Source: Lachnospiraceae bacterium AC2029
GTDB taxonomy: Bacteria; Bacillota; Clostridia; Lachnospirales; Lachnospiraceae
Direction of reading: 5' to 3'
Assembly (NCBI GenBank): GCA_000703065.1
Contig: JNLK01000001.1
Location: forward strand, 1,820,001-1,884,000
Length of the DNA stretch: 64,000 nucleotides
Part shown: positions 5,805-12,063 of the stretch, in pieces
How positions within the stretch are numbered: position 1 is the stretch's first letter
Layout: the number at the start of each line of letters is the position of its first letter
Position numbers and translations under genes: made by a program
The notes under the pieces: model-generated
Told to the model about the DNA's origin: nothing
Databases searched by the model: none
What the model saw: only the letters and a program-made list of their open reading frames with translations

Positions 5805-5900
5805 TTATTATGCCCCCCTTAAGATCAGTCGCTAATTCCTTTATACTCCTGTGTCCAGGCACTGTCAATCAGGTATTCCATGAAACGAAAAAAGCCCCGG

Positions 5901-5947
5901 AATGTTCCAATATGGAACGTTTTGCAGATAAGGAACCGTGGTATAAT
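5901..5947 (+). promoter_or_regulatory. Promoter with overlapping inverted repeat before the GGDEF gene
   Basis: An extended -10, TG-G-TATAAT, is at 5939-5947. Just upstream (5901-5921) lies an inverted repeat AATGTTCCA-ATA-TGGAACGTT with 8 of 9 pairs, covering the expected -35 area. This looks like an operator for an unseen repressor or activator. The divergent gene starts at 5804, so the site could control both genes. Confidence 0.5.
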
Positions 5948-5998
5948 AGTTATGCTATGATAACTATGGGTGGTCATTATCTGTAAAGGACGTAAGGA

Positions 5999-7528
5999 AT
6001 GCGCGATCAGGATCAAAAATCAAATAAAGCCGCAATCCGTATCGGGATCCGTTCGCTGGTCGTTGCTTTTGTGGTGATAACCTTAGTTGGTGTTGCCGCC
6101 GTCTATGTCGGACAGCGCTTTTATGCGACCGAAAAGGAGGTTTTGCAGCAGCAGTGCGAGTTGAACGCCAAGGAATCAGCCAGAGAATATGACCGATGCC
6201 TGCTTACGCGCGCCAATATTGTAACAGTTGTCGGATATGCGGTTGATACCATGATGAAGTCCGGCAAGGACAACCATGCGATTTTGGAGTACCTGACCGA
6301 TGAAACCAATTATATCGTAGCCACGCTGGATCCCAGTACCACCGGTATCTATGGCCTGATCAACGGAGAGTACCTTGACGGATCGGGCTGGGTCCCGGAT
6401 GCGGATTATGATCCGACGGAACGTCCCTGGTATCTCCAGACGCTGCAGTCCGACCGGGAGATCACATTTATCGATCCCTATCTGGATATGCAGACCGGGA
6501 CTGTCATGATGACCGTAACGGATCTGCTCAGCGATGAGAAGAGCGTCATCGCCATGGACGTCAGTCTGGAGCCGATCCAGCGGATCATCGAAGAGGTCTC
6601 TTCTTCCACCGAGGGAAGCCAGGCATTTGTTCTGGATGCAAATGGGATCGTTGTTGCACATTCCGATAAGAGCCAGCTGGGTGTCAATTACCTGACGGAT
6701 AAGGACAGCCTGGGACATTCCATAGCTGACCGCATCCTGGTGAACGGGCAGATGAAGTTTGATCTGGAGACAGAGGACGGGAACTTCTCCGTTTACGTTG
6801 ATACACTGGAGGGCGGATGGTACAGCATCAGTCTGATCAACTCCGATATCTGGTATCAGCCTCTGCAGAGGACCGTCATCCTTATCGGAGTGGGTCTGGC
6901 TTTGATCGTAGCATTTCTTACCTTCGTATTCCTGCGTCTTAACGCGAAGAACCTGGCTCTGCAAAGGCTTCATACACGTATCGATCAGGAGGAACGGCGC
7001 GGTAAGGAACTGCAGGCACTTTCCGAGACCGACCGCATGACCGGACTCTACGATCGAGTCAACGGTGAACGCAAGATAAATGAACTTCTGGCTGATGATG
7101 TGGAAGGTGTATTCCTGGAGCTGGATATCGACAATTTCAAATCCATCAATGATACTTACGGACATCAGGTAGGAGATAAAGTCATCCTCGCCGTGGCAGA
7201 AGCCCTGCACAGTACCTTCCGTTCAAATGATATCACCATGCGTATGGGCGGAGATGAATTCGGAGCATTTGCAGTAGGTATCACGAAACGACAAATGGCG
7301 GAGGCCATCATCCACCGCCTGTTCCAGCATCTGGAGAGCCTGGAGATTCCGGAACTGGGTGACAGGAAGGTCAGCGCCAGCATTGGTGCAATGCTCTTTA
7401 ACGGAGAAAATGCCACATCCTTTGCCGACCTGTACGCGGCTGTTGATCCCGCCATGTACACAAGCAAGGGAATCTCAGGTAACAGTCTTACCTTTGCAGG
7501 AGAAGAGCGGCATGACATAAAGGGATAA
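5999..7528 (+). CDS. Diguanylate cyclase with extracytoplasmic Cache-type sensor
   Basis: 509 residues: an N-terminal membrane helix (about 20-42), an extracytoplasmic sensor with the dCache signature YDPTERPWYLQTL, a second helix (about 295-318), a short coiled linker and a GGDEF domain. The active-site RMGGDEFGAF is intact, and an inhibitory-site RxxD (RSND) lies five residues before it. It should therefore make c-di-GMP under product inhibition. AAAGGA eight bases before the ATG supports the start. Ligands of dCache domains are usually small molecules such as amino acids; which one is unknown here. Confidence 0.93.
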   Translation: MRDQDQKSNKAAIRIGIRSLVVAFVVITLVGVAAVYVGQRFYATEKEVLQQQCELNAKESAREYDRCLLTRANIVTVVGYAVDTMMKSGKDNHAILEYLTDETNYIVATLDPSTTGIYGLINGEYLDGSGWVPDADYDPTERPWYLQTLQSDREITFIDPYLDMQTGTVMMTVTDLLSDEKSVIAMDVSLEPIQRIIEEVSSSTEGSQAFVLDANGIVVAHSDKSQLGVNYLTDKDSLGHSIADRILVNGQMKFDLETEDGNFSVYVDTLEGGWYSISLINSDIWYQPLQRTVILIGVGLALIVAFLTFVFLRLNAKNLALQRLHTRIDQEERRGKELQALSETDRMTGLYDRVNGERKINELLADDVEGVFLELDIDNFKSINDTYGHQVGDKVILAVAEALHSTFRSNDITMRMGGDEFGAFAVGITKRQMAEAIIHRLFQHLESLEIPELGDRKVSASIGAMLFNGENATSFADLYAAVDPAMYTSKGISGNSLTFAGEERHDIKG

Positions 7529-7552
7529 AGGATACAAAGGAGTGACAGTAAG

Positions 7553-8464
7553 ATGCTGGAAACAGAACGTCTGATCCTGCGCCGCTGGGAGGACAGCGAT
7601 GCAGAGGATATGTACAAATATGCAAGCGATCCTGATGTGGGCCCCATCGCAGGGTGGCCTCCGCATCAGAACATTGACGAGAGCCTGGATGTGATCCGGA
7701 ATGTGCTGAACGGGAAAGAGGCCTATGCGATCTGCCTGAAAGAGGACGGAAAGCCGATCGGAACCATAGAACTGAAGCTGAACGGACATACCGATCTGAC
7801 AGAACGGGATGATGAGTGTGAAATGGGCTACTGGGTCGGAAAACCCTTCTGGGGCCGGGGCATCATGCCGGAGGCCGTTAAGGAAATGCTCCGTCACGCA
7901 TTTGAAGACTGCGGGATGCAGAAGGTCTGGATCGGATATTACGAGGGTAATGAGAAATCGAAGCGGGTTCAGGAGAAATCCGGATTCCGCTATCAGTGGA
8001 AGTCGGAAGACGTGGATGTCCCCCTGATGCATGAGACGAGAACCGGAAATGTGAGCAGCATGACGAAGGATCAGTGGCAGTGGGACAGGCTGTATGAAGC
8101 TGCCGTGGCAGTACGGAATGAACGCAGGATATCCGAGTACGTCACCTGCGGGGAGGTTTCGGCTGCGATCCTGTCCGGCAGCGGAAGGATCTACACCGGA
8201 GTCTGTATCGATACCTGCTCGACACTTGGAATATGTGCCGAGCGGAATGCGATCTTCAATATGATCACCAACGGAGAGCAGGTGATCGATAAGGTGCTGG
8301 CGGTTCTTCCCGACGGTTCCAGCGGAGCACCGTGCGGTGCCTGCCGGGAGCTTATGGTACAGCTGATGCCGGGGAAGTATAAAGACATCGAGATCATGAT
8401 GGATTACAAAGAAGAACGGACCATGACCATGGGCGAGCTTACGCCCGAATGGTGGATCAAATAG
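7553..8464 (+). CDS. GNAT acetyltransferase fused to a cytidine-deaminase-like domain
   Basis: 303 residues with two domains. Residues 1 to about 175 are a RimJ/RimL-type GNAT (MLETERLILRRW start, GYWVGKPFWGRGIMPEAV acetyl-CoA loop, EKSGFRYQWKSE near the end). From about residue 180 a cytidine/blasticidin deaminase-type fold follows, with zinc and catalytic motifs CAERNAIF and PCGACRE. Both active sites look intact. The gene follows the diguanylate cyclase by 24 bases with AAAGGAG upstream. What the two activities share as a substrate is unknown; nucleoside antibiotic modification or base salvage are guesses. Confidence 0.88.
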   Translation: MLETERLILRRWEDSDAEDMYKYASDPDVGPIAGWPPHQNIDESLDVIRNVLNGKEAYAICLKEDGKPIGTIELKLNGHTDLTERDDECEMGYWVGKPFWGRGIMPEAVKEMLRHAFEDCGMQKVWIGYYEGNEKSKRVQEKSGFRYQWKSEDVDVPLMHETRTGNVSSMTKDQWQWDRLYEAAVAVRNERRISEYVTCGEVSAAILSGSGRIYTGVCIDTCSTLGICAERNAIFNMITNGEQVIDKVLAVLPDGSSGAPCGACRELMVQLMPGKYKDIEIMMDYKEERTMTMGELTPEWWIK

Positions 8465-8472
8465 ACTGAGGG

Positions 8473-9363
8473 TCAGTTCACCCGCGTATAGGAGTCCGGC
8501 CATGCCCTGCAGATCAGGGTCACGTGGTGCAGCCTTGCGAGCCGGACTGCTTCCTCGGTGGGAACGGCCTTGCTGATCAGAACGGGGATCCTGGCGTTGA
8601 TCACCTTTGTGATCATATCCGCAGCCACGCGTCCGGTGGTATAGAGCATGCAGTCCTTCGGATCCATGCCCTCCAGGAGCATGGCACCGACAGCCTTATC
8701 CAGGGCGTTGTGTCGGCCGATATCCTCGAAGGAGAGGATCCGCCCGTCGCCAAGACGGATATAGCAGCTATGGGTACCGCCGGTATTTCTGTGCAGTGCC
8801 CCGTCTTCACGGAATTTCTCCGTCAGAAGAAAGACATCCGCAGGTGAGGGCTCCCGAGATACGGTTTCCGGGGCTTCCGGAGCAGCGGTTTCCGGGACTT
8901 CCGGAGCAGCGGTTTCCGGGACTTCCGGGGCAGCGGTTGCCGAAGCTTCCGGAGCAGCGGTTTCCGGGGCTTCCGGGGCAGCAGTGGTATCCACGCGTTC
9001 CACCAGCTGGCGGTTTCCCGTACAGCAGGTAGGCTCCGCGCCGGAGTAGGGCTGAAAGTCAACATTCTCACGAAGGCGCACCTCTGCGATATTTCCTTCA
9101 CCGCAGATAAAGAGATGCGCAACCTCATCCTCACTTCGGATGATGCGTTCCGTACAGAGACGTCCCAGAACCAGCTCCGTCAGATGCTTCGGAGTGCAGG
9201 TCAGACGAAAGGCAGGAACGCCGTTGACGGAAACCTCCAGTTCCTTCTCAATGACGATCTCTTCTTCCTTCTCCTGCAGGGAACCGTCTGCTGCTACAAG
9301 CTGACAGGAAACCCTTGCCGTTGCGGGAAGACCGGTTGCGTGATTCTGGTACTTTCTGTTCAT
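8473..9363 (-). CDS. fdhD: FdhD, sulfurtransferase for formate dehydrogenase, with repeat linker
   Basis: 296 residues. Conserved blocks include VNGVPAFRLTCTPKHLTELV, GGTHSCYIR, EDIGRHNALDKAVG and TTGRVAADMITKVINARIPV. FdhD carries sulfur from a cysteine desulfurase to the molybdenum cofactor of formate dehydrogenase. The Cys motif that transfers sulfur in Escherichia coli (CxxC) corresponds here to TCCTGN, with Cys113 and Cys114. Directly after it, residues 126-168 are an Ala-Pro-Glu-Thr repeat with no counterpart in ordinary FdhD. No formate dehydrogenase gene lies in the window. It is divergent from the lipoprotein desulfurase-like gene at 9548. Confidence 0.92.
   Translation of the reverse strand: MNRKYQNHATGLPATARVSCQLVAADGSLQEKEEEIVIEKELEVSVNGVPAFRLTCTPKHLTELVLGRLCTERIIRSEDEVAHLFICGEGNIAEVRLRENVDFQPYSGAEPTCCTGNRQLVERVDTTAAPEAPETAAPEASATAAPEVPETAAPEVPETAAPEAPETVSREPSPADVFLLTEKFREDGALHRNTGGTHSCYIRLGDGRILSFEDIGRHNALDKAVGAMLLEGMDPKDCMLYTTGRVAADMITKVINARIPVLISKAVPTEEAVRLARLHHVTLICRAWPDSYTRVN
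8862..8988 (-). repeat. 24-bp tandem repeat inside fdhD
   Basis: Five imperfect units of 24 bases encode eight-residue repeats of the form (E/T)TAAPE(A/V)P. The unit keeps the frame, so the linker is translated. Repeats like this change in number by slippage. Confidence 0.85.
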
Positions 9364-9452
9364 CTTATATCCCTCTTATTCACTCTTGTGGCTATTATCG
9401 TCATTGGATAGTTACCAACCTATTATAGCCCTTTATTTAAGCAGTTTCCACA

Positions 9453-9481
9453 TTTTTATATGATTGGAATTGTGCTAAAAT
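9453..9481 (+). promoter_or_regulatory. Putative promoter of the lipoprotein PLP-enzyme gene
   Basis: An extended -10, TG-C-TAAAAT, is at 9473-9481. An AT-rich but poor -35 match (TTTTTA) lies 17 bases upstream. It sits in the 184-base gap between fdhD and the divergent gene. Confidence 0.4.
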
Positions 9482-9547
9482 GGCTACGAGACACTCAGTT
9501 GTGATTAAGGGGGAAATGCGTCATTTTACAGAAAGGGAATTAAAAAT

Positions 9548-11134
9548 ATGAGAAAGAGAAGATTATCAACGATGGTCATAGCCGGATGTCTGGCGATGTC
9601 CATGGCCTTTACAGGATGCGGAAATAAGACGGAGAGTGATACCTCCGCTGCAACCGAGGCAGGAAGCACTGCAGCGGCTTCGGAGGAGAGTACTACAGGT
9701 GCGTCAACCGAGGGTACTTCCACGGAAGCAGCCACGGATGCGACAACGGAAGCAACCACCGAGGGTGGTGCGAAGGGTGCCAAGATCACATTGGATAACA
9801 TTCGTTCCTATGTAGTAGGGATCGATGAGCCGGTGGAACTGAAGGACGGCACGAAGCAGCCGATGATCAATTTCGATAATGCGGCAACCACACCGTCACT
9901 GACTCCGGTTTCGGAGCTGGTGGAGGAGGAGCTGAAAATGTACGGCTCCGTAGGACGTGGTTACTCCCAGAAGTCCGATCATTCCACGGATTTCGTATAT
10001 CAGACCAGACAGAAGGTCCTCCATTTCGTAGGTGCGGATAAGGAAGACAATGAGTATTGCTGTGTCTATGTGAATAATACCACGGACGGCCTGAACAAGC
10101 TGGCTGCTGCGCTGGTTAAGGATAAGAGTGATGTCATTCTTACCACCCGTATCGAGCATCATTCAAATGATCTTTCCTGGCGTGAAAGAGGAACGGTGAT
10201 CTACGCGGAAGTGGATGAGAAGGGCCGTGTGAAATATGAGGATATTGAGAAGCTTCTGAAGGAGAACAAGGTGAAGATCGTCTCCGTAACGGCAGCTTCC
10301 AATGTAACCGGTTATGTGACGGATGTACACCGTGTGGCAAAGCTGGCACATCAGTACGGCGCAATGCTGGTTGTGGACGGTGCGCAGATCGTGGCTCACC
10401 GCAAGTTTGAGATGAAGGGCGCCACTCCGGAGGAGGATGTGGATTTCCTGGTATTCTCCGCACATAAAATGTACACCCCATATGGTGGCGGTGCCATCGT
10501 CGGAAAGCTTGAACTTATGTACAATACCATGCCGGATGTCTACGGCGGAGGAACGGTACAGATCGTGGCCGACAGCCGTCAGGAATACAAGAATCCGCCG
10601 GAAAGCTGGGAGGCAGGATCTCCGAACTATCCGAGTATCGTAGGTCTGAGCAAGGCCATTGATATCCTTGAGGAAGTCGGTTTCGACAAGATCGAGGAGC
10701 ATGAGAAGGTTCTGAACCGGAAGCTGATCGACGGTCTGAAGAAATTTGACAATATCATCATTTACGGTGATACGGAGAACATCGATGACCGGGTAGGCGT
10801 GGTCACATTTGACTTCTCGGATCTGAATTCCTACTACCTGGCTGTGGCTCTGAAGGAGTATGGCGGTGTGGCTACCCGCCGCGGATCCTTCTGCGCACAT
10901 CCCTATGTCTGGAGACTGAAGGGAATTGCGGACGACGAGGTCGGTGCCTTTGAGAACTGCGAGGGAGCGCATACTCCGGGTATGGTCCGTGTCAGCTTCG
11001 GTATCTATAACACCGAGGAAGAGGTGGACAAGTTCCTGGAGGTACTTCCGACAGCCATCGAGGAAGCCAAGAAGGAAGTGCAGAGAGTGACGGAAGCTCA
11101 GGAGGTGACCAAGCCGATCGACCCGTCCTTCTAG
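9548..11134 (+). CDS. Lipoprotein with a class V aminotransferase / cysteine-desulfurase-like domain
   Basis: 528 residues. The N terminus is a bacterial lipoprotein signal (RKRR, hydrophobic core, lipobox FTGC with Cys at about residue 23), followed by a Thr/Ala/Glu/Ser-rich tether to about residue 76. The rest is a complete PLP fold of the SufS/CsdA type: INFDNAATTP, TRIEHHSN (ring-stacking His), VVDGAQ (Asp binding the PLP nitrogen), SAHKMYTPYGGG (Schiff-base Lys) and RRGSFCAHP, matching the SufS catalytic Cys loop. Such enzymes are normally cytoplasmic, so an exported, lipid-anchored copy is odd. The frame is continuous from signal to stop. Reaction (Cys desulfuration or another beta-elimination) is inferred. 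Confidence 0.88.
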   Translation: MRKRRLSTMVIAGCLAMSMAFTGCGNKTESDTSAATEAGSTAAASEESTTGASTEGTSTEAATDATTEATTEGGAKGAKITLDNIRSYVVGIDEPVELKDGTKQPMINFDNAATTPSLTPVSELVEEELKMYGSVGRGYSQKSDHSTDFVYQTRQKVLHFVGADKEDNEYCCVYVNNTTDGLNKLAAALVKDKSDVILTTRIEHHSNDLSWRERGTVIYAEVDEKGRVKYEDIEKLLKENKVKIVSVTAASNVTGYVTDVHRVAKLAHQYGAMLVVDGAQIVAHRKFEMKGATPEEDVDFLVFSAHKMYTPYGGGAIVGKLELMYNTMPDVYGGGTVQIVADSRQEYKNPPESWEAGSPNYPSIVGLSKAIDILEEVGFDKIEEHEKVLNRKLIDGLKKFDNIIIYGDTENIDDRVGVVTFDFSDLNSYYLAVALKEYGGVATRRGSFCAHPYVWRLKGIADDEVGAFENCEGAHTPGMVRVSFGIYNTEEEVDKFLEVLPTAIEEAKKEVQRVTEAQEVTKPIDPSF

Positions 11135-11165
11135 AACAGAAGGAGACAGAGATAAGGAAACACAT

Positions 11166-11206
11166 GCACCGCGCGACCAAAGGACAGGACGTGCGGTGCT
11201 TTGTTT
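11166..11206. terminator. Hairpin terminator between convergent genes
   Basis: The stem GCACCGC (11166-11172)/GCGGTGC (11193-11199) is followed by TTTGTTT on the plus strand. It lies between two convergent stop codons and may serve both. Confidence 0.6.
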
Positions 11207-11214
11207 CCGTGAGT

Positions 11215-12063
11215 TTACTTGGTTATATATTCAACCGTGATATCACCGGTGGAGGTATCGATATTACAGGTTCCGCCGGTACCGGAGGAAGTCTTCGGTG
11301 TCTTTATATCACCGGTGCTTGTATCGGTGGTAAGGATCTTGTCGCTGAGGAACGTGCAGTAAACATCGCCGGTGGAGGTATCGATATCCACGTTGGAAGC
11401 ATCACCGTTGGTGAATCTTACGTCACCGGTTGAGGTTTCAATCTTCAGGTTGTCGGCCAGAACCTTATCCATGGTGACCTTTCCTGTGGAGTGGTCAACG
11501 AGGATGGATCCTGCCTGAACTCTGGAACAGTTCAGTTCTCCGGTGGAGGAGTTTACATTCAGTGCTCCTTCGATCAGGAGGTTGCTCAGCTCGATATCGC
11601 CGGTGGAGGTATCGATGGTCAGATCCTTCACGACAAAGTCGGGGGTTCCGTCCTGTTTCCAGGAGGAGTTCTTGGCGTTTGCCTTCGGGAGGTAGATCAC
11701 AACACTGTTGTGGCCGCTGAAGTTGAAGAAGCTGATCCATTCGTACCATTTTCTGTCGGTGACCTTTTTGATCTTCAGGGTCTTGTTCTCAACGGTTACC
11801 TCGTGATATTCCTTCTCTCTCTCATCACAGACAACCCGAACCTTGTCATCCTCGGAAACCTTAAAGGAGATGTCCGAAACGGAGGTATCGATATTGATCG
11901 AATCAAATTCTTCTGTGATCTCATGTGAATTTTGTACGGGATCGCCACTCATATTCAGCTTGTTGAAGTCGAAGCCGATGAGGATGCATCCGATCAGACC
12001 TGCACCGAAGCCCACAAGGATCATGGCACAGGCGAGCACGGACCAGAAATGCTTGTTCTTCAT
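11215..12063 (-). CDS. DUF4097-family envelope protein (beta-strand repeats)
   Basis: 282 residues. One N-terminal membrane helix (residues 8-31) is followed by a repeat-rich region in which IDTSTGD-type turns recur about every 10-20 residues, as in the right-handed beta fold of DUF4097 (putative adhesin or stress-response envelope proteins). Its start overlaps the stop of the upstream DUF1700 gene by one base, so the two are translationally coupled. Function is unknown; the family usually travels with PadR and DUF1700 genes, as here. Confidence 0.85.
   Translation of the reverse strand: MKNKHFWSVLACAMILVGFGAGLIGCILIGFDFNKLNMSGDPVQNSHEITEEFDSINIDTSVSDISFKVSEDDKVRVVCDEREKEYHEVTVENKTLKIKKVTDRKWYEWISFFNFSGHNSVVIYLPKANAKNSSWKQDGTPDFVVKDLTIDTSTGDIELSNLLIEGALNVNSSTGELNCSRVQAGSILVDHSTGKVTMDKVLADNLKIETSTGDVRFTNGDASNVDIDTSTGDVYCTFLSDKILTTDTSTGDIKTPKTSSGTGGTCNIDTSTGDITVEYITK

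Follow-up and report, generated by a model that had tools for sequence, protein, structure and literature searches.

The gene and its surroundings

The window, a stretch of 64,000 nucleotides from Lachnospiraceae bacterium AC2029, carries at 9548..11134 (+) a single open reading frame of 528 amino acids with an ATG start, as given in the window's list of open reading frames. Its residues 1-24, MRKRRLSTMVIAGCLAMSMAFTGC, comprise a positively charged n-region, a hydrophobic core and a lipobox F-T-G-C, and our home-made rule for bacterial lipoproteins (n-region, h-region and a lipobox Cys near the N-terminus) classes the protein as one of them. An acidic linker follows, whose coding part holds a 12-base tandem repeat (9720-9759), and behind it PF00266 (Aminotran_5) is matched over its whole profile by residues 107-496 (280.4 bits against a cutoff of 21.5, E 2.8e-83, Pfam). 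The reading frame and the Pfam result agree with an earlier note on this DNA, which had seen a lipoprotein signal, an acidic/Thr tether and a whole PLP domain in one frame; the residues that it had pointed out, namely the Lys of SAHK, the Asp of DGAQ, the ring His and the Cys of RRGSFCAHP, are all present, as K307, D277 (with Q280), H204 and C449. The features of the gene are the following.

9548..9616, + strand: lipoprotein signal peptide, residues 1-23 (sequence; home-made signal rule; dN/dS 0.126-0.178 in four of six pairs)
9617..9619, + strand: Cys24, predicted lipidation site of the lipobox FTGC (sequence; home-made signal rule)
9620..9787, + strand: acidic Thr/Ser/Glu/Ala linker, residues 25-80 (sequence)
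9788..11131, + strand: SufS-fold class V PLP domain, residues 81-528 (PF00266; AlphaFold2 model; Foldseek to SufS)
10157..10159, + strand: His204, ring-stacking His (SufS H121) in the EHHSN motif (invariant in 81/81 rows)
10376..10387, + strand: Asp277 to Gln280 (DGAQ), PLP-contacting Asp and Gln (D277 and Q280 invariant in 81/81 rows)
10466..10468, + strand: Lys307, PLP Schiff-base Lys (SufS K224) in the SAHK motif (invariant in 81/81 rows)
10892..10894, + strand: Cys449, catalytic Cys (SufS C361) in the RRGSFCAHP loop (invariant in 81/81 rows)
10958..10960, + strand: Cys471, second invariant Cys of the exported clade (invariant in 81/81 rows)
10988..10990, + strand: Arg481, substrate-carboxylate Arg (SufS R376) (invariant in 81/81 rows)

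Divergently upstream lies fdhD (8473-9363, - strand, Pfam), and FdhD is a protein that takes sulfur from IscS. An fdhD cluster was found in none of the 80 other clustered loci (flanks of up to 6 kb, many contigs being shorter), and a link to FdhD was dropped because the pairing is not conserved. The FdhD-like gene itself contains a 24-base tandem repeat in about five copies (8862-8982) that gives the protein an APETAAPE-type insert, and the open reading frame at 7553-8464 (+) joins a GNAT acetyltransferase domain to a cytidine-deaminase-like zinc domain (Pfam). An RNA leader was considered and rejected, the sole Rfam match over 8000-12000 being to a CRISPR-repeat family (8253-8292) with 26.3 bits against a gathering threshold of 45. 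Between 9300 and 11300 we found two promoter-like sites where 2.1 were expected, and two terminator-like sites where 1.3 were expected.

The host genome, a single contig of 3.86 Mb, also holds a SufS gene in a row with SufD-like and SufU-like open reading frames and a NifS gene adjoining a ThiI-like one (names by reading of the open reading frames), so that the putatively exported copy is an extra one. Two further matches in the host, to VanY-like and solute-binding-like open reading frames (named in the same way), share the type of signal and linker only.

Relatives and their predicted export signals

A contig scan of genomes gave 146 stretches encoding relatives, of which 80 (L009-L088) were examined. 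One of the six peptide patterns used in the search was derived from the signal and favours lipoproteins, so that the set leans towards the type seen in the window. By record name, 39 of the 80 are RUG or RUI metagenome-assembled genomes (MAGs), RUG being what we take to be rumen genomes, 23 are RGIG records or name a ruminant gut site, and 18 are others; by taxonomy, 76 belong to Bacillota and one to Actinomycetota, three being unassigned. One Ruminococcus MAG, RGIG3627, has two differing copies of the enzyme on two contigs (L080, L081). The exported type is rare in genome samples. At the level of the family, 4 of 200 genomes match at 1e-60, the own genome and G002 among them being of the exported type; at the level of the class, 48 of 391 match at 1e-100, with the own genome and G506 standing apart at 1e-240 or better, both with signals; at the level of the phylum, the own genome is the only one of 398 to match at 1e-170.

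We built a tree by a quick method from 95 rows (64 exported, 27 signal-less and 4 outgroup), leaving out the duplicates L006 and L089, the cut sequences L013, L034, L073 and L085, 14 near-copies, the unread L097, and L108 and L114. The exported rows form one clade with an SH-aLRT of 99 and the signal-less clade has a value of 80; long outgroup branches were flagged, which makes the position of the root less certain than the grouping of the exported rows. Comparative evidence thus points to a clade of SufS-like enzymes, predicted to be exported, to which the window gene belongs. Relatives on mobile elements have no bearing on it: tblastn against plasmids at 1e-60 gave one relative with 36% identity, on a Methylobacterium plasmid (L132, 3055-4383), flanked by genes for a DUF4395 protein and a heavy-metal P-type ATPase, that is in metal-related surroundings, and as read its frame lacks a signal in front of the domain; from viral contigs came 11 relatives with 26-30% identity.

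N-termini were classed by the home-made rule rather than by SignalP, in three versions, the final one being used for the exported clade. Among the 82 of its loci examined (L001, L009-L088 and L090), 47 have a lipobox, 31 have a Sec signal without one, 4 are cut at a contig end and none is signal-less, with L013 (cut) and L016 (lipobox) classed by the first version, as the final one missed both by motif. In L018, L019 and L064 the lipobox is questionable because the Cys sits in the hydrophobic core. The first version had called L017, L042 and L060 "none" through a wrong choice of start, and also L007 and L008; the intermediate version had found no usable frame in about ten exported loci and had called L060 "no signal". 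That same intermediate version found a signal in none of the 24 scored among 29 signal-less candidates (L007, L091-L118), one being cut and four unread. All 78 clade members with an intact 5' end therefore carry an export signal by the rule. The search for other proteins with the same fusion, which the earlier note had proposed as a check, thus came out in its favour, and the case that it had set against itself, in which every homologue would start at the PLP domain, applies to none of these 78.

The modules that accompany the signal are variable. A Pfam scan of ten proteins identified dockerin modules in L045 and L065. Big_2 exceeds its cutoff in L051, L074 and L087 and stays under it in L055, L065 and L082, and L087 also has, as a single case among the ten, a rhodanese domain in the same exported chain (E 1.4e-16). 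By eye, a transmembrane hairpin is seen in L018 and L024, and at the Coriobacteriia locus L060 the signal is of the twin-arginine kind and has a lipobox. The dockerin-bearing enzyme of some rumen bacteria could ride on cellulosome-like complexes.

No match to TatC was found in the host genome, by a search whose control was positive in 11 of 14 known genomes. TatC is present in 4 of 20 exporter genomes, including that of L060; its absence from the others is weaker evidence because many of them are MAGs. Since the host has no detectable TatC, we infer export by Sec and uptake of PLP outside.

Selection on the gene was estimated between the window gene and six near relatives. The PLP domain has a dN/dS of 0.044-0.086, and the two pairs for which no value of the signal peptide is given in the feature list are saturated. 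Because the signal peptide evolves as coding sequence, the open reading frame of the window is no artefact of frame, which speaks against the separate or frameshifted upstream part that the earlier note had allowed for.

Conserved residues, neighbours and the possible fate of the sulfur

Conservation was read from 81 rows, which remained of the 84 aligned after removal of L006 (a duplicate) and of L007 and L008 (both signal-less). Besides the residues in the feature list, R137 and R444 are invariant in all 81, and C449 and C471 are the only invariant Cys columns in 82 rows. At the position of C471 there is a His in L007 and a Ser in L008, and L008 also lacks C449. Alignments read by eye pair H204, K307, R444, C449 and R481 with H121, K224, R356, C361 and R376 of Bacillus subtilis SufS, whose chains are the best solved relatives by sequence (E 1.4e-55 and 1.6e-70 with the family profile). 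An AlphaFold2 model made from a 43-row alignment has a mean pLDDT of 88.5 and a pTM of 0.90, its weakest part being the ten-residue block that holds the catalytic loop (pLDDT 60). With this model, the best 50 PDB matches listed by Foldseek are all SufS-type cysteine desulfurases or selenocysteine lyases, the first with a TMq of 0.82 and 30% identity.

The neighbourhoods of the exported loci (gene mapped in 76 of 81) have no common neighbour. In seven of them (L018, L019, L029, L061, L064, L077, L078) a HAD-like open reading frame with a lipoprotein-like start lies directly adjacent or one gene further away; the one scanned, of L061, exceeds the PF12710 cutoff, and such a neighbour is possibly a phosphatase for PLP or its substrate. 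Eleven exported loci contain ABC-transporter open reading frames by reading, two of them with a C39-peptidase-like start; the latter, in L040 and L074, read as bacteriocin-exporter type and lie within 6 kb of the exported enzyme. L018 also encodes (5860-8916) a large protein that looks secreted and ends in what by eye resembles an ADP-ribosyltransferase domain.

Among the signal-less relatives, the enzyme gene has a DrsE_2 gene next to it in the same orientation in 5 of 18 loci (the enzyme gene being identified in 17 of the 18), three of these neighbours being confirmed by Pfam and all five by BLAST and genome search; DrsE_2 is found in 1 of the 11 exporter genomes examined. Tus proteins are of the DsrE type. 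A precedent for these neighbours is the Tus relay, in which sulfur from a cysteine desulfurase is passed along relay proteins (PMC3397948).

The sole rhodanese gene of the host (L156, 1198-1797) has a lipobox, and over 99 residues the protein it encodes shares 73% identity with the rhodanese part of L087. A host-type rhodanese is found at 1e-12 in 16 of 30 exporter genomes versus 59 of 200 genomes of the family, in samples that are unmatched for family and habitat and of which the family one includes the own genome; at 1e-8, 17 of the 30 exporter genomes have a match. As proof of a link we rejected this co-occurrence, which is weak and loose, with 13 of 30 exporters lacking a match and those 59 family genomes having one. 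By the home-made rule, 29 rhodanese loci from family genomes comprise 21 with a signal, 5 without and 3 unread, and 18 from exporter genomes comprise 10, 1 and 7, respectively, so that exported rhodaneses are common in such genomes anyway. Six of the rhodaneses (L164, L166, L167, L172, L192, L199) are lipoproteins that share a type of additional C-terminal portion, their tails resembling YGSNTWAYTRLGHI.

We lean towards the view that the product of the window gene is a PLP enzyme that is exported, held by a lipid anchor and active on the outside of the membrane in the way of a type II (SufS-like) cysteine desulfurase. The proposal of the earlier note, a lipid-anchored exported enzyme of desulfurase type, gains support from a conserved signal in frame, swapped surface modules and invariant catalytic residues, all of them read from sequence. 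The protein would cross by Sec unfolded and pick up PLP outside; external cysteine would form an aldimine on PLP, Cys449 would take the sulfur as a persulfide, and alanine would leave. The sulfur could then be handed to an extracytoplasmic thiol acceptor (a lipoprotein rhodanese, for example) or leave as sulfide, perhaps with the assistance of the clade-specific Cys471. The family would have arisen once, beside signal-less and presumably cytosolic enzymes of Clostridia, and would have spread among mostly ruminant-gut Bacillota while its export and anchor modules were swapped. Only tentatively do we go as far as a complete extracytoplasmic sulfur relay, in which a Sec-exported desulfurase loaded with PLP outside passes the sulfur of Cys449 to a surface rhodanese or releases it as sulfide via a Cys449-Cys471 disulfide. 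As proposed, this relay would need no SufE, SufU or DrsE_2 acceptor, because the hand-over to rhodanese or the internal disulfide step would take its place.

Alternatively, the protein could be an exported class V PLP enzyme whose substrate is not free cysteine but, for example, a secreted metabolite or a peptide, such as the stem peptide of the wall. It would then resemble PvdN and PtaA, and Cys449 would serve something other than desulfuration. In favour of this, exported PLP enzymes of known function tailor peptide siderophores (PMC6206403), and the Cys loop is unlike that of SufS, with Phe directly before the catalytic Cys in 81/81 rows, and position 136 is a Gly versus His53 in SufS. However, Cys449, Arg481 and His204 never vary, both the fold and the highest scores indicate SufS, the Coriobacteriia protein L060 reaches 22.1 bits against a cutoff of 650 with the PvdN model NF051467 (which, with the window protein, does not figure among the 25 families, of 33, that were listed), and there are the sulfurtransferase fusion and neighbours. 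In our view the rhodanese fusion (a single one) and the DrsE_2 neighbours of the signal-less relatives make sulfur transfer a likelier role than action on a peptide or the wall, and we consider a substrate other than free cysteine unlikely.

It is very improbable that the protein is cytosolic through an internal translation start or a signal that does not work. The export of the window protein is a prediction from sequence, and in signal-less relatives about 30 residues precede the conserved NFDNAATT motif; against this, the signal evolves as coding sequence under constraint and is kept in all 78 intact clade members examined although the modules behind it vary. A surface protein whose PLP domain has ceased to be an enzyme and serves binding or structure has equally little to recommend it: a PLP domain exported by Sec might lack its cofactor, but K307, H204, D277, Q280, C449 and R481 never vary and the domain has the low dN/dS given above.

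Comparison with known systems

Known cysteine desulfurases are intracellular enzymes that serve Fe-S clusters, thio-cofactors and tRNA. If our reading is true, a clade exported as lipoproteins and as proteins with Ig modules and dockerins puts persulfide chemistry on rumen cell surfaces. Among the titles returned by the literature search none concerned a cysteine desulfurase that is exported or bears a dockerin, with subscription journals thinly covered and absence from print not implied, and no precedent emerged for extracellular PLP uptake by a Sec-exported class V enzyme.

With SufS the window protein shares the fold, the PLP Lys, the ring His, the catalytic Cys and the substrate Arg. The "SufS-type domain" of the earlier note therefore stands as far as the fold is concerned, but not as membership of the curated SufS subfamily: among the 25 of 33 NCBIfam families listed, SufS (TIGR01979) scores highest, with 294.2 bits, below its curated cutoff of 475.1. 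The window protein also differs from SufS in being predicted to be exported, in having an additional helical segment and another Cys beyond the catalytic loop, and in the two residues before the catalytic Cys, which are Ser/Ala-Phe in the exported family and His-His in SufS. His342 of SufS, which binds the zinc of SufU, corresponds to Tyr429 in the window protein and to a His in 3 of the 81 rows. Finally, the window gene does not lie beside suf genes, its neighbours being other genes.

The second-best NCBIfam model among those listed, NF041166, gives 218 bits against a cutoff of 800. It describes the cysteine desulfurase of family 2A encapsulins, which is the cargo of a cytosolic compartment and likewise has a SufS-type domain behind an N-terminal extension, whereas the window protein carries an export signal. 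The nearest clade is that of the signal-less class V enzymes of Clostridia (L007, L091-L118), which have a C-terminal insertion like that of the exported family and keep the catalytic Cys in the loops compared.

PvdN and PtaA of Pseudomonas, periplasmic PLP enzymes that travel through Tat folded and with their PLP (PMC6206403), resemble the window protein in being PLP enzymes outside the cytoplasm, a location that for the latter is a prediction. They differ from it in that they are exported by Tat and modify a siderophore, whereas the host of the window gene has no detectable TatC. If our reading is true, it would suggest that Sec can carry a PLP enzyme across the membrane and that the cofactor can be acquired on the far side, contrary to the precedent of PvdN and PtaA with their Tat route (PMC6206403).
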